In this document: piece by piece, positions 4,388 to 49,460 of the stretch
Position numbering within the stretch: the stretch's first letter is position 1
Layout of the letters: every line of letters begins with the position of its first letter
DNA from: Lineus longissimus
Taxonomy: Eukaryota; Nemertea; Pilidiophora; Heteronemertea; Lineidae
Direction of reading: 5' to 3'
Length of the DNA: 64,000 nucleotides
NCBI RefSeq assembly: GCF_910592395.1
Contig: NC_088322.1
Coordinates: forward strand, 12,457,431 to 12,521,430
Notes under the pieces: model-generated
What the model saw: the letters and a program-made list of their open reading frames with translations, nothing else
The model's database searches: none
Told to the model about the DNA's origin: nothing
Made by a program: the position numbers and the translations under genes

Positions 4388-4404
4388 CTGAACATGTGGT
4401 TTAG

Positions 4405-12382: not shown

Positions 12383-12442
12383 ACCTTTTTAAAATACACA
12401 TGTACATTACACGACTACAGAACTGCGTGGGGTGTGTATCTG

Positions 12443-19619: not shown

Positions 19620-19930
19620 ACATTGACTAAAGAGACTTCTTTGCCATGTAGTCTCCCAGACTGTAGAGAGTGGTGTCAGCCTCTTGCAGATATGACGCTG
19701 TTGTCGCTTGGACGGACATGCGGAGAGAAGCTAAACGTTCTCTTATGCGTGTGAAGATGGATTGATGAAGTTATCGTAACTCATGCATTGTAGTCTCAGT
19801 GGCTGCTGTGTTGTTCTGGCGTAGATTAACCTCAAGGTGGGCACTATTCCGCAGCCACGCATTCAGGGCTTCAGAGATGTCTGTAATGATGGACATCAGG
19901 ATGTTGTGGTGAGGTATGAAAAATGCCATA
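19620..19930 (-). pseudogene. Unit-B copy of the coiled-coil-like ORF, with an internal stop
   Basis: Same sequence as 11738-12045 but three bases are missing near 19770. Although the deletion is a multiple of three, it turns CGA TAT AAA into CGA TAA and stops the frame about halfway. Either the gene died in this copy or the ORF was never coding. Confidence 0.4.
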
Positions 19931-20086
19931 TCTGCAAGAGGAAAGAATCATTTATTACAGTTAATGGTGGAATGCAATTGTGCTGGGGATGCTGGTTATA
20001 GGAAGGTGAGGGTAAGAGTCGGGACATAGGGAGAGCTGTGCATGTAAATATTATGATAAGGTGCTTCGAAATGAAGTTGATACCTA

Positions 20087-30596: not shown

Positions 30597-30829
30597 CTAC
30601 ACAGTCGTCTCACCGGGATGCAGAACCGATGGGTCGGATTGCTGTAGTCTATTGTACTCATTATAATATTCATGCCCTGGTACGTCACTGTCCGGTGAAC
30701 TCGAGTCTAACCGTAATTTTGTTTCTGACGTTGGGCTCGCAGGTAAGTTATCATGGTGTCCATTTTGGAAATATTCCGGGTTATCGACAGAGTTTGGCTC
30801 CATTGAACGAGGATTGCAATACATATCAG
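30597..30829 (-). CDS. EGFR: ErbB exon 20: end of C-terminal tail and stop
   Basis: Acceptor TGATTTTTCAG; 77 codons including TAG at 30599-30597. It contains SVDNPEYF, an NPxY motif expected to bind Shc/PTB proteins, and HEYYNEYN, where Y-x-N fits Grb2 SH2 binding. Confidence 0.9.
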
Positions 30830-33800
30830 CTGAAAAATCAAAAAAGACATGTCACTTTTATCACGTACTCAAAAGATATGCGAAAGGATTCTATGGAGTA
30901 CAACAAAATTGTTTTTGTAACCTTATTTAAACAGATATTTTTAGAAAATAAAAGGCATGCAAATACTCTGGTTTACACTATCATTTTAGGTCTCATTCAA
31001 ATAACGAGGCAAGTGAAGTGACTTGCCCAAGATAACACGTTCTAATCTCTGCCCATATTACTTACTATCTATGATGTCCATGTAGTGAGCGGGTTTCGAT
31101 GATTTTGGCGTTAGGTAATAATCTTCATCAACTGGCAGATGTAGGGCATAGTCTTTCATTGGGTCACGGCCAAGAAAGTCGTTATGATCATCTGCAATGA
31201 TGAACAAAAAGGGTTAAAGGGAAACAGTATTAAGCACAAGCAAGATGGGGCAGATCAAAGTTGCACAAAGTGGCCAATAGGAGTCGCACAGACCGTCAAG
31301 ATTATTCACGTTTGTATGATGAAGATTTTTAAGCGAATCAAACCAAGGTTTCTGAATGTGCATGTCACGGACCTAGAAACCTTGAATTGGACCCCATCTC
31401 CTGCCTGTGGTCCGCCTTTGATAAATATATTTAAAGGGTACAAAGGTCACCATCCCCTAAGCTTACTTACCTCTGGGATCTTTTGTTGATAATATCTTGC
31501 ACGGATCTGAACTGTACCGGGACCCACCATTGCTGCCTCTGTCTCGATTGAAGTTGCCCTCGAGGTGGGCGTATTTCTTGTCACGTTTCGTCGGCGTGAT
31601 CAAGAACTGGTTTTCCCGTGCAGGGCTGTTTGCGGGTGTCCGTTCGTCATAATCTGATGGTATGTGCACCTAAACAAGAATAAGTGAAAAAATGATAAGA
31701 GACCTGTTCAATGGTACCACTAACCGGGCCGATTTTCCACAAAATCCTACTCCGGCTTGGTCAGTTTGCAATGGACACCACAAACTGATCTGTCTGGAGG
31801 GAGGTTGAGGATTCCAACGGGTGTAAAAATCCTGATGATACCTACCTTTCCATTGCTGATGCCATTCATGCCATTCGCCAGGACTGGGCTGTCGATCTCA
31901 TCTGTTGTTTCGGTCGACTTTGGCATCAGATATTCCTCAGCATCTATCACCTCCTCCGGCCCGTCGACCGCTATGCTCATATTCCGCACGAGATCTTGAG
32001 TATCAACGTTGTGACTTGGCAGACGCATTAGCTTATCACCCTGGAGAGACAGAGCAAGGTCGAGGTCACTTTGTGTACCAAGGTCATTCACAAAGTCAAG
32101 GTTAAAGATTGAAATCAAGGTCAAAGGTAAGGCTCAAGCGAACTATCTATAAATTCATAGAAGTGTGCAAACTATTTGAAACTGAACTCCATAGCAAATA
32201 AGGCACTACAGTTTGGTAAAAATCGACGGCTTTGAAGAAAACCGAACTTGTCACAATTAGTTCACTAATCCTAGTCTACAAACTACAGCAATATGTCAAA
32301 TAATAGAAAGATTTAGTATTAACGCAACTTAGTTATCAGAATGGCTAATAAGCTGGTAATGATTGATATTTTGAATTATTTGGGCAGTCTTCCAGCTACA
32401 TGTACCCCTCAGTTATGCCAGTTTTTGTACTACATGTCATGCAACAATCAGAATACATCTATACACAGAATACAGAGACATTCTATTTTTTCAATTTAGG
32501 TGCATAAAGAAGTGCAGAGAGGATGCTTACATCTGGGAATAGAAAGAAAGATGTGTTATCAGAGAATCTCACATCATGGTGATGTAAGCTACATCATGAT
32601 AGGAAGACAGGTTTGGAAAAGTCTCGACCATCAAGGATTTTACACAGACAAAAGAACTTCTCTTCCCCAACCTATTCAAGCTAAGGACACGGGTAAGTGG
32701 GTTATCCAGTCAGCACCAATGCTATTTACAGAGTTCCTGTTTAGGTAGTAGTTCTTCAATGCATCAAAAAATGTACTCATACATTCTTCTAACTGTTGTA
32801 AACACTTTCAAATGGATAAAAGCGCCCTCTATGCGATTGATTTCCTATAAATCCGATCAAAACTTGTGAACAGACAGTAAAAGAGCGGGAAACATAACAA
32901 ACATGCAGGCGCCATGCATCACAATGCCGAGACAAAAAGACAAACTGACGGCTACGGTGTCATAGGCGTGGCCGGGAATATTAGCGCACGAGGACGAAGC
33001 GTATGACGCCCAGCTGACAGACTTGTGGTCGCAGACGTGTGGGTAAAAGTCCGCCATCAGTAAATTGGGCGTGCTGAGGCTGGCAACCGTTGCCAGGTCT
33101 TCAAAACGACACAGCTCGTCGTGCTGTGGGTGGAAACAAAACGTGGGGTTGTTGACGGATGCGAAAGCAACAATAAGGTTAAATGCTAAAATTTTGTGGG
33201 CTATTTATTTTTGTGGATTTTGCAAATAACCTAGATTCCCGAAAATGAAAACGGCAAAAAACTTTTTTTTTAGGAAAATTCCGAAAGAGTTTGCATCAGG
33301 AAAAAAATTGTGAAAATGTTTTTTTCAGAAATTTTCGCAAATCGCAAAAATAAATAGGCACGAATAATTTACAGTATGCAAAGTATGGTTGGATTGAATG
33401 TAAATATCAACAAAATACCGTTTTTAAATTTGGAGTTGTGTTGGTCAAAAGTGATGTATACCAATGTAGGATACAATGATATGATGGTATGAAAGTATTT
33501 CAGCAGTTGTGCTTGTATTCTAGATTTGGGCATGTTTTAACGAATAGGAAGCAAATAAAGGACAACAAAAAAGGCCAGCAAAATATTGCAAGAAGGGGTA
33601 TTTCAAAAGCTGCTAATACTATTGGTTCAGGTACACGTGTGACTATTGGTGGTGTGACATTTGGTGCATGTGCGCGCACATGACTATTGGTGAAAATGTT
33701 ATTGGTGCAGGTACACGTGTGGGTAAATTTTTTAAGGTGGTTCTTTGAAGTTTGTGGATGTGTAGGCACTGGATAAGCATGCAGAGAAATCTCCAGTTGA

Positions 33801-36800
33801 AACCACATGGGCTAAGCGAAGAACATTACGTGGTTCTACAGAAAAATATGCCATAGGTTTTTGATCGAATAGATACTGAGCCAAGCCTTGGAAGGCAAAG
33901 CCTGGAATCTGTCATGCTGTGATTTTGGTTTGTGGTATAGTTCTTGCCGTAGTTTCAATCGAAGCAATTTCTCTGCATGCATGCTAGTCCAGAAGATGTT
34001 AGTGGAAAAATGTGGTTGGGCATAACAAGAAATTCACAAAATATTAAAAGCATGAATGGAGAATTACAAGGCGAAAAGCTTTACACATAGTTACAGATAC
34101 AATAGAAAGGTTACGGAATCAAACATATGGCTTTATTTGTAACTTCGCTTGAATCATGAGTATTCCCCGATTTATTCAAGTTTTTGGCAATTACAAATTT
34201 GGGTTTAGAGTCGAAGCTGTTAGTCTTAACGAAAGGGTTAACAGGTCATTGCAAGGTCACATCCTGAACATCATAAAGGGCATTGCAACGTTATAAGCAT
34301 TTATTAAAGCAGCTCTCAAGATTGGAAAATCTCATTTACCGTTATTACGAGATATCTTCCCGGGTCTCGCGCCATTTTTTCAAATTCGTCCGCTAATTCT
34401 CGGAACGAAGGCCGGCTCTCTGCGTCCAGCATCCAACCTGGAAATTATATAATTTGTAGATTGAAAAGAAAGTAACGTCTGGCTTTACATTTCTATTGAC
34501 CAAGATCGACCCTTGGGCTAGATCCCAAGCGACTTTGGTGGCCAAAAAAAGAGATTCATCTTCAGGACCTCTATCTCTGTGGGAAACCACTGCTGGACAT
34601 TCCTTTTGAGATAGAATTTCTTCGAAAGTCAGAAATTATCAAAACCTATTAACATGACCCTTTGGTGGAAAGCGCTCAATAAGCACTCTCCGATGACTTA
34701 CATTTTTAGATTAATCAGAATTTCTCAATATTTTGGAACTTACATTTTATCATGATCATGTATACGTCAATCGTACAAATGCTTGGCTGTGGAAGACGTT
34801 CGCCCTTCTCGAGGAGGTCCGGCACATCTCGCGCCCGGACATTCTCGTACGGCCGCTGACCGTATGTAAACAACTCCCAAACAGTAACACCTGCAAAGTA
34901 AGGTATGGTTTCAAAATCTATCATTTTCTTAAAGGAAGTGACTATTTGGCAAGCCCGGCTCACCAAACAGCGCCTTTTTTCTGCCCAAGATGGAGAGCCG
35001 AACTCATGCATATTCAACCATCCAGGAGCTCATTATCATTTGTGGCAACACGGTCAGCAACACCGGAGTTACAGTGAAACGCCTTTAGAAATGCACACTA
35101 ATGCATTTAACATGTTTATCAGTTAAATCACGTTTATGACTTTTTTGTAAATCCATACAGTCATGTACATGTACATGCCTCTTCATGGATTATTGACCAA
35201 AACCCGAGTTTGGTAACAGAAATTGAATCGAGAGCGGGAAGTCGGCCATTGTTAAATATGCGCATATAAATTCGAATATGACGTCACTGCTCTCTGATTG
35301 GCCAACATGTTGTAACCTCTCCGGCTCGCCAAAGAGGGTAGTATTTTTGCCCTGTTTGGCAAGCCCGGCTTGCCGAACAGGGTGGCTTTTTAGTGCTGTT
35401 TGGCAAGCGGCTCTCCAAACAGAACAAAAAAAGATGCCTGTTTGGCGAGCGGCTTGCCAAATAGACCCGGCCTTTCTTAAAAGTAACAAAAATAGGAAGG
35501 GTTTATATCACATCACCTATAGGAGGTTGAAAAAGACCGCGGATGACGGAGCTAACGGGTATAATGTCAAGGAACTCACCATAACTCCATACATCACTTT
35601 TGTGTGTAAAAACTCTGTGTTGAATACACTCTAATGCCAGCCATTTAATCGGCATCTGAAATAACGTAAAATTTCCATAAATACCCTGTAGATACATGTA
35701 TCACCATTTAATGGACATTAGGCTGTAACTGGGTGGGACACACAGTCTATAATAAAAGAACAGATGATGACATCTGTGGGTGGAATATACCTTAAGGCTT
35801 GTCAAACATATCAACATGACCATTTATTGGAAAGCTCTCGAAGTGCACTTTCCGATGGTGCTATTATGTCTTAGTTGATAATTTTTTTAATAATTTGTAA
35901 ACTTTGCTGAATTTTGTTCTGAAACTGTCTTACTTTTCCCCCAGCTGCATGGTACTCCTCTTCATCATAGTCTAACAGTTTTGCCAAGCCAAAATCTGTG
36001 ATCTTCACCAGGGTGGGACTTTGCACTGAAAAACATGAAAGAGATGACTCTGATAAGAAGTTAGTTTCATCTGTTAAGACAAATCTCGAACAGATGGCTT
36101 TAGACATGATTCGAAGATATCCATTCAATGTTACACTCTCTGCCTAATTTTGGAGATGCATGCAATAAAATTGTAGAAAATCATCCCATTGGCTCACCCG
36201 ATGTCACGTGGCATAGCATCGTCCAGAGCAATATAGCAATGTAAATTTACTTTCACGTTACAAGCAAGATCGTTCTTAACCTTACCCAGGACATTCCTCG
36301 CAGCCAAGTCACGATGTACAATCGCCCTGTCCTCCAAATACGTCATCCCCTTAGCGATCTGCGTGCACCAATTTAACAGCGCCTTGGAGCCAATATTTGC
36401 CTTATTCTTGCGTACGTAATCCAAGAGACATCCTAACGGCATCAGCTGTGAGACCAACATCATCTGGGCCGTCATACAGACGGCAAGAATCCGGATACAA
36501 TATGTGTTATCAACTGACGTCATGATGCGCGCCTCCTCAAGTAATTCCTTATTCTGACTCGGGCATGTTCCTTCCGACAAGACCTTGATCGCGACAGGTA
36601 TTTTGACATTCTCGCCCTCGGGTACCCAGACTCCTTTGTACACAGTACCGAACGCGCCCGAACCGATGATGCCACCTTTACGGAGTTCAGACTCCTTGAT
36701 GAGGCGAAGTTTCGCCAAGTCGGGCTTTGCATCTGTTGGGGTAAGCGGCTGCAAAAAAGACAAAAATTGACTTTGAAATAGATATATTTTGAATCTTGAT

Positions 36801-39800
36801 TTTATTAGGCATTGCTAAGACAAATCATTGCTAAAATAAAGAATAGTCTCCAAGATAGAGACAAACCAAGCTATCGTACTACTCACCACAGATTCGTCAT
36901 AACCGCTCATCCTCGCCGTCAGCTTCAACATGTTCTCCTTGGCGAGCATTCGCTGGCGACACCAATAGGCAATGATGATAATACCGATAATCACAATCAA
37001 GATACACGCCACAGACGCACCGATGACGATGTTCATTTTTCTGCAAATCGAAAAGATAAAATTTGATTGAATGTGGCATTAAGTCCACACCTACAGAATG
37101 CAACATCTTTTCCTTTCATTTTACCTCAAAAGTTCGTCTACGTAGCATCATACGTTGAAAACTGAACATTCCGTATTATGTGATTGTTGCTAAACGATCC
37201 TTGCTCAAATCGTTTCGTCATTCAGGAATACTCGTTTGAGTCCTTTGAATCAGAACGTCAATTGACACAAATCAAATAGGATTGAACCCTAGACCTCTTG
37301 GTCAGGACCCCAATACACCACACCACTGCGCCCCCTATTGTGATGAATCTTTGACCTGCATACTGGTTCGATCTGTGACGTTCTAAAAGAGAATGAAAAT
37401 ACCCATACCTTGCCCTCAGTTTTCTGCATTAAGAAAATGAACAAATGAAAAAATAATGATTCTGTCGATGGTATAACAATTCAAATGGTCTTTTTGCTAA
37501 TTCAAACTTATGTTGATCATAAATAAACTTGGACACTAACAAAAATGATTTGCAATCATCTCTGTTGCAGTTGTCCAGGTCCTTACGTGGTCAACAATAT
37601 CACACCTTTAGCATTCATACAATGTGTTTCAAAGAAGATGATTTTTGAGACACGCAGTATGATTTGGTTAAATAAAAGTATGAACTAAATAGGAGTTAAC
37701 AGTATAAGAAAGAGATAAAGTTCAAGAAAGTACAGAAAGAGGAAGGATTGTGAAGGATAACTTAAAGATGAATGTCACTCTATAAAGCTAACTTTTTTTC
37801 CAACATGCTCATATATTCCATTCGCAGATATCTGCCAGCATCCAGTTATAGTTACTTAAGGGTTGAAAATATTCAAAGAAATTAACTTTAAACAGTAGGT
37901 GTATACATTATGTGCTGAACACAGAAGAAGTGCTTGAAACTTAAAGCGGACATGTGATTTTGAGACAAGAGTATAAAACAGGCCATACAAGATCAGTAAG
38001 GGATATAATAGTCCTGTGACAAAACTGAATTCTGTGATCATGTCTCAAATCTATTTCATGAAAGTGACACTCTCATTTGTAACATTTGAACAATCATGTT
38101 TCATCAGCAACCTCAAAGTCCGAGGTAGCTACAGGGACTGCAAGCTGTGTAGATCAGAGAGAGTCAATAATTCCATACATTTGTGAGAAACAATAAGAAG
38201 TGCAAAGCCGGAAAAACACTGCCACATAAACATGCCACAGAGTTCATGAAATAAAGTGTTTGGCTTATATTTTGCAGGGCAGGTTAAACATCACTAATGG
38301 ATATAACACTACGATGATAGAGATAAAACAATTAAGCATGCCTTTGGTGTGAAATGCTTTGAATTTGCAACGAGACCATTTTGATAATTTCATACACTCA
38401 GCATATTGCCTGCAGCAAATGTGAGACTGTACATTGGTGACACCTAGTGGCCACAGCACAAAACACCTTCACACGAGGCTGTGGTGCCCACTGATAACGA
38501 AATCGACGAACTTACGATGAATTCAGTTCTCCGACGCAAAGATCTTCGCCAGTTTCTGGGTCACTTTCGACATATGGTAATTCCTCTGGACAGGCTTGTG
38601 TACAGTTGTGCTGAAAATACAAGGCATCACGTCATATAAACCAAAGTTTTTATAGCATGGAAAACCATTTCTTCGACAAAGTTGTTATCCCAAAGTATTG
38701 ACACAAACTGAGGTATATATTTGAATAAACTGAGTACTTTCTGCAGAGTCAGAGGACATTTCTCGACCATGACAGCGACACTTACAGTTGTGCGAATCTC
38801 CCCGGTGACATCATCCTGATATTCCGTCACGATCTTCACATTCGCGCAGTATTTACACTGCGTCGACGACGCACCATCACACCCTCGCTTGCACTGGACA
38901 TGGCACCGTCCGCACTCAATGTCGAACCCCTCCTTCTTCATGGGGTAGGTGTCCTGGGTCGGGCACTCACTGAAGCAGCTGTGTTGGAAGCGATAGTAGT
39001 GGCAGATGGGGCAACTGTAGGTACCGTAACCCAGACAGGTCTTGCACAGTTTGTGGCATTTGAAGCATTTCTGGAAGGAAACATTGAAATAAACTTCAGG
39101 ACCTTTTGAGTAACTATTTGTGAGCATCAGAGAGTGATGGAGTATACTTCTTTTATCTATTGGACACTACAGTTTCGTGAACAGGCCCATTTGACATCAG
39201 TGTTTGCAGAATAATTGTCTTTTGCCTTGGTGGACCAGCTTCTAGCTTGAGGGCTAAAATGTATTGAGTTACGATTATTATCTCAAACTCAAAGAGAAAT
39301 ATGGAAGGAAACGAGAGACCTTGGAGGAAACCAAATATGATGAAGGGAGTCAGCCTCTGTGTTGCTATTCCATATGACGAGGTGGTCCAAAAATGACAGA
39401 CCCCCTTTGAATTCACACTATGAGCTGGAGCCTTTGTATTCTCATTGTACCTACCGGTAAACCTTTCCACATATTTGTTGGCGTCGCAGTGTCTTTCCCA
39501 CCCTGGCCCGGCTGCAGATAGTAACCGTCTGGGCAGAAATACTCTGTCGGGTTCTTATCGAGACACTCGTCAATCGTATTACCATCCTCCTTCATCTTCA
39601 AGAAGCCACATTTGTTACAGGCCCCCTTGCCGATGTTATTTGCAGGACCGGTGCAGCTACAAAAGAAAACCGACGCTGACTTTTTTGTCATATTAGGAAA
39701 ACATTACGCCCAGGGAGCTAATCTCAAGCGTCTCGTATTTCTCATATCAGTAGGGTATCTTGCATTCGAGGATCTAGCAATGGATTTAGCAAAGGCAATT

Positions 39801-42800
39801 ACGTCATTTGCCCAAGATCACAAGCAATGAAGATGGATTTTTCACCACGTTCAGATCATGAGTCTTACACCTCAACCACTAGACCATTGCCGAGGTAGCA
39901 ACACCTCTTTGGAGATGGAAATGCAGATGTGAGCTTTCTTCAAGGCTCTGGTTGCTGTTCCTGTTTGTTCAATACTACAATGCTTTCCACAGAAAACCAT
40001 GATTTCAAAAGTCGACCAATTTTAGGCTTACCCTCCAACACAGTTTTCATGACATGGCTGACATTGCTTATTCGTGTCCGGGTACTTTTGGATGGGGCAC
40101 GTCGACACACAAACAGGCCCATCGTTGAAGTTCTTACAGTCGCCAGTACAGTTACGAGGACCCTGAAAGATGTAAACAGCCGTGAAGAGCGTGATGTGAC
40201 CAAAAGGTGCCACCTGTTAGACATGGAAGTTTGAGTTCTTAAGCTTGGTGGGAATTGTTAGAGAAACTTACCGGCCCACGACAACCCTTCGAGCACTCAT
40301 CATCACATTTTTTACAAGTCTTATTCCCGGCGTCGTAAAGTCTCGGTTGGGATTTGCAGGATCCAATACACAGACCGTTGAAAGTGTAGTTGTTACAGGC
40401 CTGACACTGGCTGTTCCCCGGGCCCCAACACCCATCACACTCCACGCTGCAGTTCTGGGCGTCTTGGTCTAGAAATGAAAATAAACGAATTAAGAAACAG
40501 CACTGAATCTGAATCTGAATCTTGCAGGGGCTGGCGATGTGGTTTTAACCTGTTAATCAACCAATATGTTCAAAGAAACTAGTCATGTAATGTAAAAGGA
40601 TAAGCATGGTGTTTTCGAAAGTAAGCAACTTGTCGCATTCATCTAATGGTGTTTCCTGAAAGTAAACAACTTACCACATTGATCCTTTTTCCGATTCTCC
40701 TTCAAATACAGATACTTGTTTGGTATTGTGAACAATTTTGGATCCTTGATGATTTTCTCCCATTTGACGGTCATGGCGTAACACAGCTTACGGTTGTCAA
40801 AGATCATGACGCCTCCTGCCATGATACTCCGTAACGACTTGAGCCCAAGCGATGTGATGCTGGTGTAGAGGATTGAAAATGACAGATGCGTGCTGAAAGG
40901 AAGGGGAGACTGTTAAACATCTGACCCATGCAGTGTATTTACTGTCCACTCATTCAAGATGCAAGCAGACGGCTGACTCAAGCAGACCACATCGACTGGC
41001 CATGTTTTCTCAGGAATTATGTCACTGGTGGGAATATATTTGAAGAAAAGTTGATTTTCATAAACACCTGATGAATGATGGTTCAGTTTTGTTTTCAAAA
41101 CGATGTAAGACATCTACAGGTCCAACCCAACTCTTCTCAATGATTAAGACATGTATGTAAAAAAATATTTTTGATCTATCATTCATTTTGTCAAAACAGT
41201 GGAACCATAACCGTGTAACATGGACACACCAACAAAAATTGCACAAGATTTCTACATGTCCGTGGTGTTTACACTATAACAAATTGCAATGTCTTGCCTC
41301 GATAATTTGCATTTATGACGTAGATCTACCTCACTGAGCACCCAAGATGATAAGATTCGACAAGCCAAAGGTTGTGATGCTTGTCTTCTCTTGAGAGGGG
41401 AGGGTACAAAATACAGGTTGAGAGTAGCATAAATCTCCTGCTTAGATTCATGCACTGACAGATAGATGCAATGGCATGCTTTTAGATAATAAAAATAGTC
41501 AGCCAAAAGTCCACTACACACAAAGATACATGTATCTTCAAACCAGACAGGATGCGATTTAATCATCACCCCATGATATGAACCAAACCAAATTGGAGAT
41601 TTAAGTCCTGCAGCTTGCGGTGGAATCGTCTGGATATTTCTGGCATACCATCTTGATGAGGGAAGACAAAATTATTACTGGCATGCCTCTGTAACTTTAG
41701 ACATGTGCCTGTGACAGTTATGGCAGCCTTTAAATCTTAGCTTCCACAGCAAGCTGGTGCGCACCTTATTTCCACAGCAAGATGGACATTCTACTTTAAC
41801 ATGCATGAAGCAGAGGTTGAAGTTCTCATTCCGTAGGTATGTTGGGATCTCCAGCCACACTTGCTTTCATTTTTGACATTTCCTCAACGGCTAAATGTGT
41901 AAATGTGTAAATCCATGACTACATTGTTTTTGGGATGCCCTGTATAACCGATTCCAGCATACCTTCAGGATGAGATGAACTTCATCGCAAGTTGAAACAA
42001 AATGTGAATACTTATCCACCACTGTCATCAAACAAACAAAGTACACAAACAAATGAATAAGACGTTGGGGTGAACTAAACAAATAAATACAAAATAATCC
42101 GGGGAATAACAGCAAAAACTATCTTAACAATGCAAAACCAATTGATGCTACAAAGGAACATTTGATATCAGAGACCCCTGTTTTGGAACACTCGTCCAAT
42201 TAGCTTTTTTTGTAGCTGTTCGGTCTCTTGGATACCCTGTCCAGCACAACACATTTTGGGTGACCAACCTTTCACATTAGCGTATAAAGAGAGCCTTCCG
42301 ACAAAGGAAAGAGCAAAGACCTGAATGGGTAATTGGTGACCGCAGACTCTTCGATCTGTTGTTACCCAATCTCGGAGGAACAGGTTTGCATTCCTATTAA
42401 CAACCACCATCACCACATCAAAGATTCCCACTTCAACTGGAACAGTCTTGTGTGTCAAGGTGATGTCAACATCTCAAAACGTCGCCGCTAACAGTCGCTA
42501 AATCACTCACCTCAAGACATCCCTGCCCGACACTTTCTCCAGATTCCCAAGAAATGACAGATTCTTCACCTCCAGAGGCAGATGCTGAATCGTCAAATAC
42601 CCGGTTATCTCCTTCACTGTTGACAACTTAAACAGTTTCGCTGGGTCCAGAGCAGTCAGATTCTTGTACGGATCGTTATCAAAAGTCGTCTTCAAGATGC
42701 GCAGATTTCCGTCAATAATGGTGCAGTTTGTGAAATTGTGTATGTTCACCTCATCGAGATATTCCGATTTCATTCCAGGGCATTTTTTCGGGCACGGGCC

Positions 42801-45800
42801 ATCACAAGGGACGCACTTTAAATCTGTCGTGGCGAGTTTATCCGGCGGGCAAGACTTCACACACGCACTCCGATCCGTTAACATGTTATCAGGGCATTTC
42901 TTTACGCAGATAGAGCCGTACGTGTACCGTGCATTTGGATTTGGGACGGTCTTGAACTCTGATTTGTCATAGATTTCCAACGGCGGGCAAAACGGTTCGC
43001 ACTGGCCATCATTGAAGAAATTCTGGCAGGCTCGGCATTCTGATTTCCTTGGTCCAGTACATCCTGCAGCGCATTGCGCGTGGCAACACTGGTTGGGGTT
43101 AGGCCCAAAGCATCGTCCATCGCACTGGGGACTGCACATTTTCTTGAACACTGAAATGAAGAAATGATGTGGTAATGACTGTGGTGATGAGATATAAAGT
43201 ATCTACTGCAATACATCTGGAGTGAAACCTCTGTTTTTAGTACCAACTTGGTCATTTCCACTCAACTTGACCTGCATAGCAAGGGCACCGACTTCAGCTT
43301 CAGCCTGTGGCCAGAGGAGAAGTCCATTGCAAGCTACTGTCCACTTGGGTGCTGTTGTACGCCTCAATCCAAGGACGAAGCAATCTAAGTTAAGTGATTT
43401 GCTCAAACAAGTGACAGTACTGGGAGTCTAACCCCACTGAAACCAACTTACATGTTTGGCAATAGTCCGGTCCGCTCCCCCAGCATAGTCGTCTGCCATC
43501 CACGTCGCATGCTTTAACACAAGGGGTCGTACCTGAAACAAAACTGGCCAGATAAAATCGTGCAGATTAGGAAATACTGGTACCCGGTGGTAAAACACCA
43601 TAAAACCATAGAATTATTTCACTCCTCCTGATCTGCCAAGGCCAAGGAAGTATTTCCACTGCTTTTACTCCAAAACAAAGTTTTTTCACCACATTTACTC
43701 CAAACTAAGTATTTTTACTGTCTTTTATGCTTTTTCTCCCAGGGAAGTATTTTAACCACTTTTACTCAAAAATTAAGTAGATTCACTGCTTTTACTCCAA
43801 CGTAACAAAATCTTTGAATATCTATTACAGTTTTTCTACAATGCCATGCAGAGAACTATCAAATGGTTTTAAACTATAGTTAACTAGTGTACAACAAGCA
43901 GTCAATAGTTGTCATCAAAATGCAAGAAGCAAGCACAGAATGGCTAGGAAGTTCCAAACGGTAAACGTTTAATCTATTAGTTCAGCCCCCCCCCCCCCCC
44001 CCCCCCATGACAGACATGGCCCATTACTCAAAATTTCTGACTAGGTGAAGATATGGTATTTTTGTCAAGAATGGTAGATGATTGTTTTCAATAGAATAAA
44101 AGCTAGACAGATCACTGCCCCCCCCTCCCCCCCCCCCCCAACCTCCCCCGACTACCAGTCCAAAGTAAGTGAAATCCCAGGTGTTGCACTGTGTATGTTT
44201 CTCCTGAACTAGACAACTCATGAACACCGTATCTTCTAGCATGTTTGCCCCATTGTGTGGGCAATTATTGTGTAAGCATAGGCATAGGATATGGAGAGGA
44301 CGAAGCTCCAGGAGAACAGGACTCATTCCAAAATTTTCCATATTTACACAGATTCTCGCATTGAAATTTCATCAGCTTTAAAGATGGACTTTGAAAAAAA
44401 ATTCATGCTGTGGCTTGTTATACCTGTTTTCACTTCTTTTTAGGGCCTGATTGTTCAAGACATGGTAAGTTGGGTATCAACTTCCAATATCAAACCAAGT
44501 ATTCAACTAAGAGTTTTGAACGACCTGGCCATGATCATTCGTAACTTAGATATTATCTTCAAGGGTCTTAAAGGGTTAAAAAATACTAAAGACTCCAAGT
44601 TGTGGCATGCGTCAGTAACACAAAAATACATGCAAAACATCACAAAATGTGCACAGGAACATGCAGAATTTTAACATTCGACAAAATTTTTGGGACTCCA
44701 TGCAAATTCACCTAAAACCAGTGATATTAGTGTACACAGTTGTACGGAATTAAAGAAACTAAACCAAGCTCTGTTAGACAATGACCAGTCGATTTCACCA
44801 ATTTCATAAATCTTTTCCGTCCCAATCGGGTTTTTTTCACCGATTTTTTTAAAAACTATTATGTTTAATTTCAGCAATAGCTCTACATGTATACCACATG
44901 TGATAGAAATTGTGACCAGCTACGGGATTGCAGGTTTCCTCCTACCTCTTCATGGGAAAAGGTAAGTCAGAGGACATAACATCTTTTTGATCAGTTCCAT
45001 TTCTGGTCATTGCTGTTAGCGTTAATTAGAAACAAAACCACATGCAACCAAATTTATTAGAAAAACATGTTCATCCTTAAAGCCTGTGTTACTAAGCCTC
45101 CATTCAAATTCAAATTGTCTCATTGATATGAATTTTTTTGATTTTTCATTGTCGGAAAATGATATTTTGAATTTGAATGTAAAACTCAGGTGAACTTAGC
45201 CACAGAATGAGACATGTAAATCCTTAAAGCCTTTTGTTATATAAAGCCGCCATTCAAATTCAAATTGTCATTGATATGAATTTTTTGGAGTTTTCATTGT
45301 CGGAAAATGATATTTTGAATTTGAATGTAAAACTCGGCTGAACTTAGCCACAGAAAAAGACAAAAGTGGAATTAGATAGTCAATATATTATTTAAACCAA
45401 TTTTCTGACCTAATTAATTGAGAAAACTAAATGTTTTCTGAACCAAACAGTCTGATTCTAGCAATTTCATTTAGGATTAACTCGGACAAATGTTTAGTTC
45501 AGAAAACAATTTAACATCTCAATTAATCAAGAGAGTAACTGACATAATTAACTTATTGACCATCATAATTAAGGTAATTAATGATACAAAAATAAAGCGA
45601 GAAATTAAAAGTGAGAAAAATCAAGAAACGAGCGTGCGAATATAAACAAGCCCACCTGTTACATCGAGAAGTCACGACGGCCATGTTAGTAGATGCCTAC
45701 AGGTCAAGGGTCAAGGACATACTTACACGGCCTTCGATAATATGTGCTATCGAATTTAAAATTTACATCGCCATCAAGAATATCCTGCCAGTTTATTTGG

Positions 45801-48800
45801 TTTTCATAACAGAGCAGGTTATTGTTGTGAAACATGATCTCCCCACGCAGGATCTCTGGAAAGAAACGTGGAGAATAAGACGTTGAGAATAGTTTCTTCG
45901 TTGTCGTGGCGACGGTCGTCGTGGCAACGGTTGCTACCGGCGACCAAGATGGCAGTACACGCAACTTGACTGCTGATGAATGCATGGCAACAGATTAAGG
46001 GAATTTTTTGTGATGCTTTTTTTAGAAAATCTCGGAAGGATAAGAAAAGTGTTTTGATATTGGCAATTTGCCAATTTTGGTAATTTATTTTCATAACGTC
46101 GCCAAACATTTTCTCAACAGTTTACGGACTGCCAGGTACCTGAAGCGCAGCAGACAATGACCCTGATCACATGACAGGTGGCGGAACAAATCAAAATAGC
46201 GGAAAAGATTCAAAATTTGAATATGATTTGCGTATTTCGATAACATCTTGATCAAAATAATGAGCAAGACTAAAATTGTATGCAACCAGTGAACGTATTC
46301 AAGGTCACGTCTGCTGCTGTGGGTGGCGGTTCAAGGTCAAAGGTCAAAGCCCGCTGACCCATAACCAGCCAATCATAGCGGGTTCGGTATAAAAATGGCC
46401 CAATGGGAACATACTTACAATCGCTCACAAAATAAGATGTGTCTGAAATTATGGACACAGTCTTGTTTACTGGACCTAAAATGTCGGTCCAGTCAATGGT
46501 CGCCGCATGACAGAGAAGGTTGTTATTCACAAACTCTATATCGCCATTTAGGATGTCTGCAAAAGAGCATGATGGGTAATTGAGATTATCTAGGTCATGT
46601 GAGAATAGGGTAAGGGTAGCCATGTTGCAAGGTTGTAACACCATAGTTGATTTTCGTCCAAACTAACCACCCAATATTGCTCAAGATCGATGGCACTGTA
46701 GGATGCAAGCATTTTGCTTTGTTAGTTCTGCTGTCAAAACCCAGGAGGCACCACCATGCAAGAAAATGTCTTCAAGGAAGGGTTTTAAAGGCTGTCTTCG
46801 TAAAAACACTTTAAACTTAAATTCGAATCTATTTATGTATTGGCATGTCTTGCATCTTGCAGAATTTTCATGAGCTTGAGTCATTAAAAATTTGCTTGGG
46901 TACATACCGGGTGGGGGAGGGGGAGGGGCAAGATGGGTTGGATAGAAGGTGGGATGATCTGAGCTGCAGAGACTTCACCGGCAGGGGGGGGGCTGAAATT
47001 TGTTGGGAAGGGAGTACCCTCTAAACTTGATCTAAAGCCAAGATGAGAAAGGTCATTCTACATAAGACTATCTTATAGTTCTTACATGGAACGAGACACT
47101 TTTCCCCGGACTTCAGATGAAAAATATAATTTTGGTTTGGGTGGTTAGTTTGGACGTTTCGGACGACTTTTTGTTATCAATCAAATTTGTGGGAAATTTA
47201 ATGTTTGGGCAAATCCAGAGATCACGAAACACAAATATCCAAATTCTGATTGCCCTTTATGTACAGAGCACTTTCTTTTGAATGAGACAAGCCCTAGACC
47301 CCCCCCCCCCCCATAATTTCTTTTTGAATTCTAATGCACAACCTTGCAATGGACTCGTATGCTTTGAATAGAGAACTTAAAGTCTAACCTTTTTCGGCTA
47401 TTGCTAACTCGCGACTGACATTTTTTTACGATTTTATCTGCAGTGTATTGCACTAACACTCATCATTGAAAACTGCTTTTTTCAACCAGAGCAGTTTTGA
47501 TTTTTCTCCTTTTTTTAAAGAGAAATTCCAAGATCTTCTAAAATTTGCCAGAAAAATAAGATTTAAGTTCCCTACCTAAAGAATTGGACATGGGGCGACA
47601 TTTAGGCATCGAGGCATTGGTTATGATATGCTACTAGGCATATCAAATATGAGGGAGAACATTCACTGGGTGGCTTGACGCAATATCTCATTTCCATGAA
47701 ATGGAGCCAAAAAAGTCTCGCACCACTGCCGAAAATATTGTCTACGCCATTTTGATCATCTTCCCACAGAAGGCTGTCATATTATCGTTCCTAAAATACA
47801 CTCAATCGAATAGCACCTATCCAGAGGCCTACTATGAGGCGATAATGATGATAGCCGACGAAAGCAATGGAAGGCTCACAGAGGTTTAAAATTGGCCACG
47901 GTAGTATGCAGGCAACTGACAATGCCTGCAGACATCACTGCTTAACTGCATCCACAACTTCCCCTAATAAAACACCTGTGAATCTTCATGATTGACAGTA
48001 TCATGCAGACATGAAAAAGAGTTTGTAGAAGGAAAAGGGTTCAGATGAGTAGGTTAGTTGATGATACCATGACGAACAAGGAGTTAGATGATACATATAT
48101 ATCAGAATTGTGCATTGAATGTAGGTCACTCTGATTCTCAGATTGACCTTGGCAAAAGTGAATGCCAAGGTCATCTAATTTAATTCCCAGAAGGACCTTG
48201 AGCAAGTAGAACAAAGGTCAATGGGAATCGGCAAGTGACCTTAAAAATGTTGAATGTCAAATGAAACTTGACACACAAACTATCAGAGTGACCTTGACAT
48301 AGAGGGATGAAAGGTATATATAAATTGCTCTAAACATACAGATAGTGAAACGAAATACTCTTGTTTCAAAGATCTAAGACTGGACAACTTGGTGTTGTCA
48401 ACCCATTGTTTATTCAAACTAAACATGTTATCAAACAACCATGCGCATGGTATCAAGCTTAAATCAGTCTTGGGTCAGTGAACCTGGAGTATTTTAGGGG
48501 TATCCATAATTACCAACATTTTCCAAAGGGTACCAATTCTTGGGGTCAGTGATGAATGTATACTTCTGAACTTTTTTATCTTCAAATGTTAATAAATATC
48601 CTAAGTAATCCCAATTTCCAAAAGTACTATTTTAGGAGAAGTAAGAGGGTTTTCAAAAAGAGTATCTTTTGTACCTTTTTGAAAATGCTGATGATTATGG
48701 ATGACCACATTGTGTGTACATGTATCTGAAATTGAATGCAAAATAGTACAAATACCCACTGGTATTTAGAATAGTATTTACTTTTGCTGGACACGCCCTT

Positions 48801-49460
48801 CTCCCCTCCCCCTCCCCCCCCCCCTGCAAAAAAGGCCAATGTACAGATCAATAAGTATGCAATGTTGATTGAAAATTAGAGGAAGATTCTACTCCAGGAA
48901 CTGCTGACACCTGGTGATGGAATGATCAACAAGAAAGCTAGTTCTTTCTTCTTTGGGTCAAAAAAACCAACACAAACTATGCCACCTGCTGTTTGGTAGA
49001 ACACATGCTTTTTGATTGTTTACCTAGGTTTCCACAACCCCCCCCCCCCCCCCCCCCCAGATCAACCAATGAATCCCAGATTTTACCACCTTACCTCTCA
49101 AATTGATGAATCTGAGTTCCTTCAGTCCAACATTCTTATCATTCGGTTTCACGTTGGCCACCACGTATAAGCTGTATTTCTTCGGCTCGCCTCTCCGCGC
49201 GCTAAACAGCGTCTGCCCGCGTATGATCTCCAACTTCTTGAGTGGGACATAGTCGGCGTAGACGTATGCAATCAAGACGTAGCCCGTCACCTCGCGAATA
49301 TTTTCCAAGAAGCCCAAGTCATAATTTATTGTCGGGTCGTCTAAGAAGGTAATTTCTAAGTTTCCATTGACGTACGTGCAGTTCGTGTATCGTTCTCGCA
49401 GGAAGTCGTATCTGAACTTGGCCGGGCGCGATTGGAGACCTTCGTGTGTGCCAGCACAAA
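30597..49460 (-). CDS. EGFR: EGFR/ErbB receptor tyrosine kinase, 20 constitutive exons plus one alternative (signal-peptide exon not placed)
   Basis: Exon-by-exon reading gives one frame through 20 exons, all splice phases agreeing, for about 1378 residues. Layout, numbered from the first residue seen: L1 (1-168), CR1 and L2 (169-481), extended CR2 (482-784), TM helix (about 787-808), juxtamembrane, kinase (about 860-1125), tail to 1378. Kinase landmarks: [11 protein letters not shown] loop, VAIK Lys891, helix-C Glu908, gatekeeper Ser936 (Thr in human EGFR), HRD Asp983, DFG Asp1001, activation-loop Tyr1015. The spacing between these residues equals human EGFR without gaps. By family it sits in the plasma membrane, binds EGF-like ligands, dimerises through the CR1 arm and signals to Ras/MAPK through tail tyrosines. 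CR2 is about twice the vertebrate length, as in Drosophila EGFR. The mature N-terminus is essentially complete, but the first exon is missing or beyond the window. Confidence 0.95.
31066..31191 (-). CDS. EGFR: ErbB exon 19: C-terminal tail
   Basis: Acceptor CATTGCAG, donor GTAAGTAA, phase 1 to 1. It carries several acidic tyrosine sites: [16 protein letters not shown] and HYMDIID. Confidence 0.85.
31471..31669 (-). CDS. EGFR: ErbB exon 18: C-terminal tail
   Basis: Acceptor TCTTGTTTAG, donor AGAG|GTAAGT. Contains RYSSDP, conserved in vertebrate EGFR tails, plus SDYDERTP and KYAHLEG tyrosines. Otherwise polar and probably disordered. Confidence 0.9.
31846..32040 (-). CDS. EGFR: ErbB exon 17: start of C-terminal tail
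   Basis: Acceptor CTCTCCAG, donor AAAG|GTAGGT, 65 codons in phase 0. GDKLMRLPS matches the segment just after the EGFR kinase, and [10 protein letters not shown] matches the conserved VVDADEYLIP autophosphorylation site. Confidence 0.95.
32857..33123 (-). CDS. Possible alternative 3'-terminal ErbB exon
   Basis: Within the intron between exons 16 and 17, a strong acceptor (TTTGTTTCCACCCACAG) opens an 88-codon frame ending in TGA, starting [13 protein letters not shown] and ending in a hydrophobic run ([19 protein letters not shown]). The phase is 0, matching the donor of exon 16. If used, it would replace the whole phosphotyrosine tail. No family recognised and no good donor inside; it could also be chance. 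Confidence 0.25.
   Translation of the reverse strand, partial: HDELCRFEDLATVASLSTPNLLMADFYPHVCDHKSVSWASYASSSCANIPGHAYDTVAVSLSFCLGIVMHGACMFVMFPALLLSVHKF
33192..33375. mobile_element. Small foldback MITE in an ErbB intron
   Basis: CTATTTATTTTTG near 33202 is mirrored by CAAAAATAAATAG near 33345, a perfect 13-bp inverted pair. The outer part ends in ATTTACAGTA. A diverged relative is at about 60,060-60,130. Confidence 0.5.
34340..34437 (-). CDS. EGFR: ErbB exon 16: end of kinase C-lobe
   Basis: Acceptor ATAATTTCCAG, donor [24 protein letters not shown] and [14 protein letters not shown] match the last kinase helices of EGFR. The donor lies in phase 0, before GDKLMRLPS of exon 17. Confidence 0.95.
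34744..34890 (-). CDS. EGFR: ErbB exon 15: kinase C-lobe
   Basis: Acceptor CTTACTTTGCAG, donor [37 protein letters not shown] and [12 protein letters not shown] are diagnostic of the ErbB family. Confidence 0.97.
35580..35655 (-). CDS. EGFR: ErbB exon 14: activation segment / helix F
   Basis: Acceptor CGTTATTTCAG, donor [22 protein letters not shown] carries the P+1 loop and ALE motif; HKSDVWSYG is the helix-F start. The first residue Met replaces Val of human KVPIKWM. Confidence 0.97.
35934..36025 (-). CDS. EGFR: ErbB exon 13: DFG and activation loop
   Basis: Acceptor ATGTTTTTCAG, donor AAA|GTAAGA. Encodes [12 protein letters not shown] and [10 protein letters not shown], with the Mg-binding Asp and the conserved activation-loop Tyr. 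Confidence 0.97.
36286..36748 (-). CDS. EGFR: ErbB exon 12: juxtamembrane end and kinase N-lobe to catalytic loop
   Basis: Acceptor CTTTTTTGCAG, donor CTGG|GTAAGG. Runs from [10 protein letters not shown] through the Gly loop, VAIK, helix C, the [12 protein letters not shown] hinge (Ser gatekeeper before Gln) and [10 protein letters not shown]. All catalytic residues present. Confidence 0.97.
36887..37040 (-). CDS. EGFR: ErbB exon 11: transmembrane helix and juxtamembrane
   Basis: Acceptor CGATTTGCAG, donor GTG|GTGAGT. One hydrophobic span of about 22 residues ([20 protein letters not shown]), followed by the stop-transfer segment [11 protein letters not shown]. Small residues near the helix start (GASVA) resemble the dimer motif of ErbB helices. 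Confidence 0.95.
37270..37340 (-). mobile_element. tRNA-derived SINE head in an ErbB intron
   Basis: Minus strand shows an A-box-like GGCGCAGTGGTGTGG and a B box GGGTTCAATCC (37289-37279) at tRNA spacing, but no cloverleaf with a clear anticodon. Confidence 0.5.
38516..38610 (-). CDS. EGFR: ErbB exon 10: extracellular stalk
   Basis: Acceptor GTATTTTCAG, donor TCATC|GTAAGT. Starts [10 protein letters not shown] and ends LCVGELNSS just before the membrane; three cysteines close the last CR2 module. Confidence 0.9.
38786..39070 (-). CDS. EGFR: ErbB exon 9: extra cysteine-rich modules of CR2
   Basis: Acceptor TTTCCTTCCAG, donor ACT|GTAAGT, 95 codons in phase 0. Furin-like CxxC and CxxxC spacing ([20 protein letters not shown]-like, [12 protein letters not shown]). 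This length of CR2 has no counterpart in human EGFR but resembles the extended region of Drosophila EGFR. Confidence 0.93.
39455..39656 (-). CDS. EGFR: ErbB exon 8: CR2 module
   Basis: Acceptor TTTTCTTTTGTAG, donor CCG|GTAGGT (an alternative GT lies four bases further on). Cys-rich: [33 protein letters not shown]. Confidence 0.9.
39720..39905 (-). mobile_element. Decayed tRNA-derived SINE in an ErbB intron
   Basis: The A box TGGTCTAGTGGTTGAGG (39886-39870) is clear but the B box is eroded. The body keeps CTTGGGCAAATGACGTAATTGC (39816-39795), a motif common in animal tRNA-SINE bodies. Confidence 0.45.
40032..40162 (-). CDS. EGFR: ErbB exon 7: CR2 module
   Basis: Acceptor CATCTTTCAG, donor GGAGG|GTAAGC (phase 2). 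[15 protein letters not shown] and QCQPCHENC fit the furin-like repeat; NCT is a glycosylation sequon. Confidence 0.92.
40272..40468 (-). CDS. EGFR: ErbB exon 6: start of CR2
   Basis: Acceptor TTCATTTCTAG, donor [22 protein letters not shown] corresponds to the GCWGP signature at the start of EGFR domain [14 protein letters not shown] follows. Confidence 0.95.
40675..40892 (-). CDS. EGFR: ErbB exon 5: second half of L2 (ligand-binding domain III)
   Basis: Acceptor CTTCCTTTCAG, donor [21 protein letters not shown] and [16 protein letters not shown] match the last turns and cap of the L2 beta-helix. Confidence 0.95.
41675..41860 (-). other. Unplaced ORF with paired-cysteine pattern inside an ErbB intron
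   Basis: A 61-codon open frame includes [11 protein letters not shown] and [11 protein letters not shown], i.e. CxxCC ... CxxCxxH, like a small zinc ribbon. No flanking splice signals that fit the ErbB frame were found. It may be a transposon or gene fragment, or chance. Confidence 0.2.
42511..43150 (-). CDS. EGFR: ErbB exon 4: CR1 with dimerisation arm, and first half of L2
   Basis: Acceptor TTCATTTCAG, donor TTGAG|GTGAGT; 640 bases. The segments [12 protein letters not shown] and [13 protein letters not shown] form CR1. The arm region runs from [12 protein letters not shown] to [11 protein letters not shown]2 begins at about [15 protein letters not shown] and continues to [11 protein letters not shown]. 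This one exon covers what is several exons in vertebrates. Confidence 0.96.
43452..43532 (-). CDS. EGFR: ErbB exon 3: start of CR1
   Basis: Acceptor TTTGTTTCAG, donor ACAT|GTAAGT, phase 1 to 1, 81 bases. [18 protein letters not shown] matches the first CR1 module (GSCWG in human). Confidence 0.93.
43986..44142. repeat. Poly(C) tracts in an ErbB intron
   Basis: A run of 21 C at 43986-44006 and an interrupted run near 44118-44140. Other C runs are at about 47300-47312, 48806-48823, 49038-49058, 61171-61186 and 61474-61486; G runs are at about 46985 and 53465. On the transcript several would be G-runs. Confidence 0.7.
45065..45360. repeat. Tandem 147-bp repeat, each unit with a perfect 14-bp inverted repeat
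   Basis: Units at about 45065-45211 and 45212-45360. In each, CATTCAAATTCAAA (45101-45114 in unit 1) is mirrored by TTTGAATTTGAATG (45166-45179), enough for a long RNA hairpin. It lies in the intron just downstream of alternative exon 2b. Confidence 0.75.
45414..45526. repeat. 36-bp imperfect inverted repeat
   Basis: Arms 45414-45449 and 45491-45526 match as inverted copies at roughly 30 of 36 positions (shared TTAATTGAGA and GTTTTCTGAAC). The loop is 41 bases. About 200 bases downstream of the donor of alternative exon 2b on the transcript. Confidence 0.65.
45727..45855 (-). CDS. EGFR: ErbB alternative exon 2b: C-terminal end of L1
   Basis: Acceptor CGTTTCTTTCCAG, donor CCGT|GTAAGT, 129 bases, phase 1 to 1. 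It encodes [20 protein letters not shown]... to YYRRPC and aligns along its length with exon 2a (NNNLLC, I.W.DIL, final Cys) at roughly 45% identity, three residues shorter. It joins exon 1 and exon 3 in frame. It lacks the NKT sequon of 2a. Confidence 0.9.
46299..46346 (+). promoter_or_regulatory. Nuclear-receptor-type motifs between the alternative exons
   Basis: TCAAGGTCA (46299-46307) is a perfect monomeric ERR/SF-1 type site, and AGGTCAAAGGTCA (46334-46346) a perfect DR1. Motif evidence only. Confidence 0.35.
46419..46556 (-). CDS. EGFR: ErbB alternative exon 2a: C-terminal end of L1
   Basis: Acceptor GCTCTTTTGCAG, donor GATT|GTAAGT, 138 bases, phase 1 to 1. It encodes [20 protein letters not shown]... 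to SYFVSDC, matching human EILHGAVRFSNNPALC and the following cap. It carries an NKT sequon. Spliced to 2b it would read T+AG = TAG stop; spliced to exon 3 it reads T+GT = Cys. Confidence 0.92.
48116..48300. promoter_or_regulatory. Cluster of AGGTCA/TGACCT half-sites in an ErbB intron
   Basis: At least six half-sites in both orientations, including CCAAGGTCAT and GTGACCTTGAC (ERR/SF-1-like), within 185 bases. They could be receptor-binding sites or a degenerate repeat. Confidence 0.3.
49095..49460 (-). CDS. EGFR: ErbB exon 1 of those seen: most of L1 (ligand-binding domain I)
   Basis: Acceptor GCTTTCTGTCTTTACAG, donor [20 protein letters not shown] is the mature N-terminus signature. [25 protein letters not shown] and [10 protein letters not shown] are classic L1 beta-helix turns. 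The acceptor is phase 1, as in vertebrate EGFR after the signal exon. An in-frame ATG at 49491 ([14 protein letters not shown]) lies upstream, but the intact acceptor makes it less likely as a start. Confidence 0.95.

Follow-up and report, generated by a model that had tools for sequence, protein, structure and literature searches.

The IIIb and IIIc forms of the FGFRs have been described as differing in affinity for FGF ligands, and in an FGFR2 splicing reporter the double-inclusion form was engineered without an early stop so as to escape decay. Within the ErbB family, ErbB4 has been described with alternative juxtamembrane versions, JM-a and JM-b, while de4 EGFR, i.e., human EGFR with exon 4 skipped, is given in a review as reported to be ligand-independent and self-dimerising. 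In a human survey (PMC5740500), tandem mutually exclusive exons are defined as neighbouring internal exons of similar sequence which differ in length by no more than 20 amino acids, share the same frame, are bounded by GT-AG sites, and contain no stop; what counts there as a guard against double inclusion is that the length of an exon is no multiple of three (377 clusters, 60%).

The original prediction for the locus described here was a pair of mutually exclusive exons, 2a and 2b, in the L1 domain of an ErbB receptor, with the remark that no ErbB gene with this arrangement had been described. The terms ‘EGFR’ and ‘ERBB’ are absent from the main text of two surveys (human and Drosophila) of tandem-duplicated mutually exclusive exons, and no description of such an ErbB gene was found in the part of the literature covered, in agreement with the remark; ErbB4 JM-a/JM-b and de4 EGFR are, however, known ErbB splice alternatives.

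The EGFR gene of Lineus longissimus

The window, a stretch of 64,000 nucleotides, contains the EGFR gene of the nemertean L. longissimus minus its 5’ coding end (about 122 residues); all exons lie on the minus strand. The NCBI model "isoform X2" (P0001, from a cluster of 5 members) is identical to the window gene across residues 123–1497 and includes exon 2b. Its residues 1–119 fall outside the window and match C15:12546657-12547013, further upstream, at 98.3%, with residues 120–122 unplaced; the exon that had been taken as the first coding exon is thus not the first. The domains of P0001 (PF01030, PF00757, PF14843, and PF07714), together with the exact map from residue 123, identify an ErbB receptor gene with L1-CR1-L2-CR2-transmembrane-kinase-tail in one protein, and both the 2a form and the 2b form match EGFR/ErbB structures end to end (318 and 321 aa).

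The upstream shared exon (‘exon 1’; 49095..49460) encodes the start of the mature ectodomain and most of L1, matches residues 123–244 of P0001 exactly, and ends in AGAG in phase 1. It is followed by exon 2a (46419..46556; 138 nt, 46 codons), which encodes (D), 45 residues and (C), by a GT-AG intron of 563 nt (45856..46418), and by exon 2b (45727..45855; 129 nt, 43 codons), which encodes (E), 42 residues and (C). The downstream shared exon (‘exon 3’; 43452..43532) starts with GT, completing a Cys codon (T/GT), and opens CR1, the remainder of which is encoded with the first part of L2 by the next shared exon (42511..43150). The other 16 coding blocks (30600..40892) provide the L2 end, CR2, transmembrane segment, kinase, and C-tail in an exact map of residues 528–1497; the split codon of residue 1421 falls outside them.

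The predicted coordinates, lengths, GT-AG sites, and phases (1-1) of both exons proved exact, the boundaries being cag/ACATCC...GCGATT/gtaagtatgt for 2a and cag/AGATCC...GGCCGT/gtaagtatgt for 2b. Their sites, which had been called strong, lie inside the range of the other sites of the gene, with acceptor scores of 10.1 (2a) and 11.8 (2b) against 2.8–13.6 (16 of 19 used) and donor scores of 9.4 (2a) and 7.9 (2b) against 5.5–11.2 (13 of 19 exon ends used). As expected, exon 1 joins exon 3 in frame through either copy, since both G+2a+GT and G+2b+GT are open, and the two exons show the sequence features by which PMC5740500 defines tandem-duplicated mutually exclusive exons. A direct join of exon 1 to exon 3 would also keep the frame, but the protein would lose roughly one quarter of the L domain along with the two cysteines that the segment holds.

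A transcript with 2a followed by 2b carries an in-frame TAG at the joint, about 290 codons in and with 18 more exon junctions beyond it; the reverse order, 2b-2a, would read open. As read from the frame, the presence of both exons in one mRNA is incompatible with a full receptor. The stop is real, but it is not purpose-built, as the original wording of a built-in guard implied: it arises because the introns split a Cys codon (T/GT) and a Glu codon (G/AG). Glu occupies the latter position in all 15 members of a homologue set chosen as lophotrochozoan-like and looks like the starting state at the 5’ end of the segment. An exon between introns that split a Cys codon (T/GY) and a Glu codon (G/AR) would be safe to duplicate, in that a copy-copy join gives an immediate stop with no new mutation.

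Homology and constraint of exons 2a and 2b

The two exons encode alternative versions of the same 44–47 residues at the end of L1, a segment that we take to correspond to human EGFR exon 4. The proposed homology at roughly 45% identity holds, with 20 of 44 aligned residues identical. At the nucleotide level the identity is 0.54 across 44 codon pairs (0.64, 0.61, and 0.36 at codon positions 1, 2, and 3), so that third positions are the most diverged. Against an ErbB profile made from 119 homologues, Lineus excluded, 2a scores 53.7 bits and 2b 55.5 bits; of 1000 shuffles of each, 955 (2a) and 967 (2b) scored at all, with maxima of 9.3 and 10.8 bits. Both exons retain all 8 columns that are at least 95% conserved among the 119 homologues. 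Neutral decay of 2b was simulated 20000 times down to a nucleotide identity of 0.62, short of the real 2a-2b value of about 0.54; the frame remained open in 4611 runs, the highest score was 28.7 bits, and 50 bits was never reached. With 2a, the match to the Pfam L domain covers positions 1–111 of 112 (84.4 bits); the score is 92.3 bits with 2b, and skipping the segment cuts the match to 1–83 (58.7 bits). Profile scores, near-invariant positions, decay simulations, and third-position bias together bear out protein-level constraint on both exons. Among the homologues, P0221 gives two adjacent profile hits.

The nearer copy is 2a for 44 of the 119 homologues and 2b for 74, with one tie. Codon usage is weakly coding-like in 2a (-5.4, a value reached by 10 of 307 intron windows) and stands at 2.5 in 2b; third-position GC is 0.48 in 2a, 0.49 in 2b, and 0.61 in the gene. 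A six-frame profile scan of stretches of at least 20 aa revealed no third copy in the window, the next best scores being the L2 counterpart (41.8) and 7.5, and the 2a protein, searched against the genome at E values up to 1, matched only two places, 2a and 2b.

Of the properties said to change with the choice of exon, net charge (K+R minus D+E) is -6 in 2a and -3 in 2b, and a single N-glycosylation sequon (NKT) is present in 2a and none in 2b. The EGFR positions Arg125, Ser127, and Asn128, which in a simulation study bond with some ligands and not with others, fall inside the exon (numbering checked on chimpanzee EGFR), and the first two of them are occupied by different residues in 2a and in 2b. 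Ligand contact at the Arg125 position is an extrapolation from vertebrates, because at least 111 of the 119 homologues have no Arg there. Based on the Arg125/Ser127 positions, the glycosylation site, and the charge change, the resulting two receptors would differ in ligand preference or activation; that ligand retuning is the main effect is a tentative suggestion to which we give slightly less than an even chance.

Origin and control of the pair

The pair would derive from the ErbB exon that encodes the C-terminal end of L1, duplicated in tandem long ago. In a tree of 29 segments (47 columns), a sister grouping of 2a and 2b was neither recovered nor rejected (p-AU 0.185). The end branch is 1.73 for 2a, a long branch, and 0.39 for 2b, and 2a is the faster-evolving copy; 2b is the conserved and probably the default form. 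The best alignment score for 2a among 239 proteins is to the nemertean Tubulanus (106, with Lineus 2b at 92), as would fit a copy that arose along the nemertean lineage, whereas the highest identity on the columns of the tree is to Branchiostoma P0062 (47%), which argues against it. No orthologue of 2a was found in a 2a-region search, which yielded one protein among 13 candidates at E values up to 10, P0001 itself.

Protein P0002 groups with Lineus (100% SH-aLRT) and adjoins Tubulanus on the tree. Its flanks are 70% and 66% identical to those of Lineus, and its segment shares 39% with 2b and 29% with 2a; this is the only pair with segment identity of at most 0.42 among 4259 homologue pairs with upstream-exon identity of at least 0.65, as if the P0002 transcript used yet another copy. 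That this exon is a diversifying cassette site in nemertean EGFR, with several alternative L1 ends in one gene and several ligand specificities reached through FGFR-like splicing, is conceivable and rather unlikely. Candidate pairs of similar kind were rejected: the ‘isoforms’ X1/X4 of Fopius arisanus and X1/X2 of Argonauta (78% and 74% identical overall) differ along their full length and were read as separate genes. A screen for near-identical proteins differing mainly in the segment flagged one pair in the first 120, Culex/Anopheles, which are two species, and, in all 239, 20 of the 198 pairs whose upstream sequences resemble each other; these were judged ordinary divergence of a fast segment.

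Among the RNA structures and splice-site classes tested, no feature enforcing exclusivity was found. Competing structures of the Dscam type are unsupported, the best I1-I2 and I2-I3 complementarities being matched by 7 and 10 of 60 shuffles; that of I1-I3 was matched by none of 60 but is merely poly-G against a C-rich run. The 563-nt intron is too long for simple steric blocking, the donors of both exons are gtaagtatgt, leaving no incompatibility, and there is presumably no U2/U12 mix. A perfect inverted repeat of 20 nt (arms 46655..46674 and 47137..47156; loop 462), whose nearer arm ends 98 nt before the 2a acceptor, is a weak candidate for an RNA stem. No other non-simple inverted repeat within 3 kb in the window is as long; this one has no third copy there at up to 3 mismatches, and its 511-bp stretch matches the genome only at itself; we place little weight on it because another 66-kb genome stretch has much longer ones. 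TGCATG, which we take to be a Fox-type site, occurs 5 times in the intron downstream of 2b (within the stretch 43845..45046, minus strand; reached by 0 of 300 shuffles), twice before 2a (48 of 300), and not between them; this weak excess must be read with the 11 sites in 9.3 kb of the other introns of the gene.

Alternative readings and comparison with known receptors

Inclusion of 2a before 2b might serve only to add the TAG, so that the mRNA decays and the receptor level falls, the protein sequence of 2a itself hardly mattering. The position of the stop far upstream of the last junction, the place of 2b in the NCBI isoform, and the faster evolution of 2a are consistent with such a poison exon; a pure one would not retain the ErbB profile score, the eight near-invariant residues, and third-position-biased divergence, nor would its donor be expected to join exon 3 in frame. 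We regard this as improbable, a dual use of 2a, poison and coding, being possible. Marginally less probable still is that 2a, left over from the duplication, was silenced not long ago and has fallen out of use. Its codon-usage signal is weak, it has lost an Arg kept in 108 of the 119 homologues, and no 2a-like protein was found elsewhere; but the open frame, the in-range splice sites, the 84.4-bit L domain, and the failure of neutral decay to give such a sequence leave room only for a very recent silencing. An assembly artefact, e.g., a misplaced haplotype or paralogue exon, could be suspected from blocks of 98.9–99.4% identity in the left part of the window, which indicate duplications or assembly problems nearby. 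We give it hardly any credence: 24 of the 44 aligned residues differ, the flanking introns show no homology above shuffles in the first 300 nt on each side, the genome search with 2a matched just these two places, and the other ErbB-like gene found (C11) has a single copy of the segment, which is a different one.

The explanation that we favour, and consider likely, is that 2a and 2b are tandem-duplicated ErbB L1-end exons used one at a time, giving receptors that differ in ligand preference or activation; mutually exclusive use by itself is a shade more secure. Exon 2a would be spliced into mRNA, RNA-binding proteins would choose between the copies, and double-inclusion errors would be removed by decay. 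The worm probably makes two receptor versions, which may sense different signals. EGFR signalling is thought to have diversified via gene duplication in vertebrates and via the choice of ligand in invertebrates; a splice switch within the ligand-binding domain, if true, would be a third route, and the natural receptor pair, differing in one stretch of 44–47 residues, would help to learn which residues set ligand preference.

By analogy, the locus is most likely an FGFR-IIIb/IIIc-like switch inside an ErbB gene. As in those receptors (exons 8/9) and in nematode egl-15, a receptor tyrosine kinase has tandem alternative exons in the region that binds ligand, and double inclusion ends translation as in FGFR-IIIb/IIIc. 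In contrast to FGFR, where the segment belongs to Ig domain III, the Lineus segment is the end of an L domain of the ErbB family; both exons are multiples of three, unlike the guard of the human survey, and the stop is produced by codons that the introns split. For the UGCAUG (Fox) control sites and unbalanced acceptors of the FGFR switch, the counterparts here are Fox-type sites that are not clearly enriched and acceptors scoring 10.1 and 11.8. In ErbB4, too, splicing selects between extracellular versions of an ErbB receptor (JM-a/JM-b), but these lie in the juxtamembrane region, outside the ligand-binding domain, and are not known to be homologous tandem copies. The same protein segment is affected in de4 EGFR, and skipping yields a receptor without it; human EGFR, however, has one copy, skipped in tumours, whereas Lineus has two alternative copies.

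The host gene and its tandem exons

The window, positions 12457431-12521430 of contig C15 in a 391-Mb genome, finds its best protein match in P0001, the NCBI model named 'epidermal growth factor receptor-like isoform X2 [Lineus longissimus]'. On the minus strand, from 49461 to 30600, it matches residues 123-1497 of P0001 exactly in 20 blocks, with residues 315 and 1421 falling in split codons outside the blocks, and a region upstream of the window (C15:12546657-12547013) aligns with residues 1-119. Judged from this match and the mapping of the blocks, this is the EGFR gene of a ribbon worm, complete with kinase and tail. Elsewhere in the window (1838-20086) lies a tandem array of near-identical genes, which we take to encode EamA/SLC35-type transporters; blocks 4597-7544 and 12218-15146 are 98.9% identical, and blocks 7538-11430 and 15177-19064 are 99.4% identical, which could reflect either a recent duplication or a two-haplotype assembly.

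Exon 2a (46419-46556, minus strand) and exon 2b (45727-45855, minus strand; the copy in P0001) are each a multiple of three with phase 1-1, and are separated by a 563-nt GT-AG intron. Both G+2a+GT and G+2b+GT are open, the order 2b-2a would be open as well, and the frame is kept via a Gly codon if both exons are skipped, while the 2a-2b joint reads TAG. The original prediction of tandem homologous exons of one phase, each joining its neighbors in frame, is real and accurately placed, and the TAG that it noted is present. The terminal T of either exon forms a Cys codon with the GT of exon 3, and the partner of this Cys is presumably the Cys inside the exon (EGFR Cys157-Cys187). A splice-site matrix was built from the gene's own exons. 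Usable sites were obtained for 16 of the 19 acceptors and for 13 of the 19 exon ends, the others being excluded since their coordinates did not fall on an AG or GT; the final exon end is the stop. Acceptor scores were 10.1 for 2a and 11.8 for 2b (other exons, 2.8-13.6), and donor scores were 9.4 and 7.9, respectively (other exons, 5.5-11.2); the first ten intron bases after the two exons are identical (gtaagtatgt). Since these scores lie inside the gene's range, both exons look usable.

Homology, constraint and descent of the two copies

The segment encoded by 2a or 2b was compared with a profile of 119 ErbB homologues (120 listed of 207 matches, minus P0001). Exons 2a and 2b score 53.7 and 55.5 bits, respectively, against maxima of 9.3 and 10.8 in 1000 shuffles of either exon, 955 and 967 of which received a score; when the window is scanned in six frames, the L2 counterpart comes next (41.8), followed by a match at 7.5. 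The two share 20 of 44 residues, with identities by codon position of 0.64/0.61/0.36 and a dN of 0.54; dS, for which no value was computable, is taken as saturated. When neutral decay of 2b was simulated, 4611 of 20000 sequences stayed open, the top score was 28.7 bits and none reached 50. All eight columns conserved at 95% or more are retained in 2a, 2b and P0002, a nemertean-placed EGFR homologue, and a genome search with the 2a protein (E up to 1) returned two matches, 2a itself and 2b. Counter-evidence comes from the weak codon-usage signal of 2a, equaled by 10 of 307 intron windows; third-position GC of both exons is below the gene's value. By these measures of the sequence, the resemblance is neither chance nor decay.

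Exon 2b is the conserved copy, with a branch length of 0.39 vs 1.73 for 2a (unresolved tree; 29 rows, 47 columns). Among the proteins compared from outside Lineus, the best match to 2a is from the nemertean Tubulanus by score and from Branchiostoma by identity. The Tubulanus protein, P0004, is the sole member of its cluster, and Tubulanus is therefore represented by one form. A search by exact five-residue words, among few nemertean proteins, gave one hit (P0001) and no 2a-like protein from other organisms. In the full-length tree P0002 is sister to Lineus, and its segment is anomalously different from both Lineus copies: identities are 0.70 and 0.66 in the flanks, but 0.39 (with 2b) and 0.29 (with 2a) in the segment. 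Such low segment identity is found in this one of 4259 comparable pairs, many of which involve insect rows and are not independent. P0002 may carry another exon copy or may have diverged fast.

A second, diverged ErbB-like gene (L005, L008 and L010; C11, about 4640251-4647627, minus strand) includes L1 (51% identical over P0001 residues 123-187), pieces of CR1 and L2, and one exon-4 counterpart, whose sequence continues without a break into that of the next exon. A search of the downstream 61 kb at E 0.01 gave neither a transmembrane nor a kinase match; the gene could represent a secreted decoy or else a remnant. Receptor L domains are also present at L001, L004 and L006 (C2, 3777432-3789214), in a gene that we assume to be insulin-receptor-type.

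The joint stop and probable exclusive use

The joint reads TAG because the introns split a Glu codon upstream (G|AG) and a Cys codon downstream (T|GT). The first position of the segment is Glu in 26 and Asp in 93 of the 119 homologues, and Glu in all 15 of a hand-picked lophotrochozoan-like set; the C11 gene has AA ATC after the acceptor, which, as judged from the acceptor side, would agree with a codon split in the same way, as G|AA. If Glu was ancestral at the split codon, a duplicate of the exon would therefore have made the joint stop from the start. The stop, which had been read as a special built-in device, needs reinterpreting: it follows from the split codons and is a by-product, rather than a later addition, whose protection against double inclusion is incidental. 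The guard is still in place in the order 2a-2b, despite 2a now starting with Asp.

Mutually exclusive use of 2a and 2b is likely on this sequence evidence. Steric blocking was rejected, the 563-nt intron being too long, as was a conflict of splice-site class, both exons having ordinary GT-AG sites. Complementarity between the introns before 2a and between the exons, and between the latter and the intron after 2b, shows no excess (matched by 7 and 10 of 60 shuffles, respectively); that between the two outer introns exceeds all 60 shuffles, but solely through a poly-G vs C-rich run. The intron after 2b contains 5 copies of TGCATG (reached by 0 of 300 shuffles), yet 11 are present in 9.3 kb of other introns of the gene. 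Lying 98 nt upstream of 2a, a perfect 20-nt inverted repeat (46655-46674/47137-47156; loop 462 nt, duplex -35.6 kcal/mol) is the window's longest non-simple one within 3 kb, the next being 15; the 511-bp stretch around it has one match in the genome, and longer inverted repeats occur in another 66-kb genome stretch. The choice between exons could be made by RNA-binding proteins, and an mRNA joining 2a-2b would be removed by decay. The first 300 nt of the flanking introns have no clear homology (equaled by 137 of 200 shuffles upstream and 16 of 200 downstream), which suggests an old duplication.

The introns around the pair (window 43987-49079) also hold long sense-strand poly-G runs, e.g., near 43995, 44130, 47305, 48815 and 49045, and the one downstream of 2b includes a 148-bp unit in two tandem copies, 88.9% identical (45065-45362).

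Possible consequences and known systems

In EGFR, the counterpart of the segment is precursor residues 142-187, within which fall Arg125, Ser127 and Asn128 of the mature protein (numbering verified on chimpanzee EGFR, P0179). At these three positions 2a carries Glu/Val/Asn and 2b carries Met/His/Asn. Net charge is -6 for 2a and -3 for 2b, and 2a, unlike 2b, includes a glycosylation sequon. The L domain match is complete with 2a (84.4 bits) or 2b (92.3) and cut without either (58.7). Conservation of the segment is below that of the remaining L1 (mean 0.54 vs 0.64; lower in 6511 of 7022 homologue pairs), which fits a receptor part free to be tuned. A molecular dynamics study describes bonds of Arg125 and Ser127 to Glu27 of betacellulin and TGF-alpha, not EGF, and of Asn128 to HB-EGF (PMC3554757), and structural work describes a Domain I interface hydrophilic with TGF-alpha and hydrophobic with EGF (PMC8716103). 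By analogy, these vertebrate ligand contacts might carry over to the worm receptor; the Arg125 position lacks Arg in at least 111 of 119 homologues. Skipping of human EGFR exon 4 is reported to give a self-dimerising, ligand-independent receptor (PMC3775402).

In open-licence PubMed Central we recognised no description of an ErbB gene with alternative exons for its ligand domain; the known ErbB4 JM-a/JM-b splicing choice concerns another part of the receptor. Judged from sequence alone, 2a and 2b have the features by which tandem-duplicated mutually exclusive pairs are predicted in published work (PMC5740500). They resemble the IIIb/IIIc exons of FGFR (PMC5343918 and PMC2880598).
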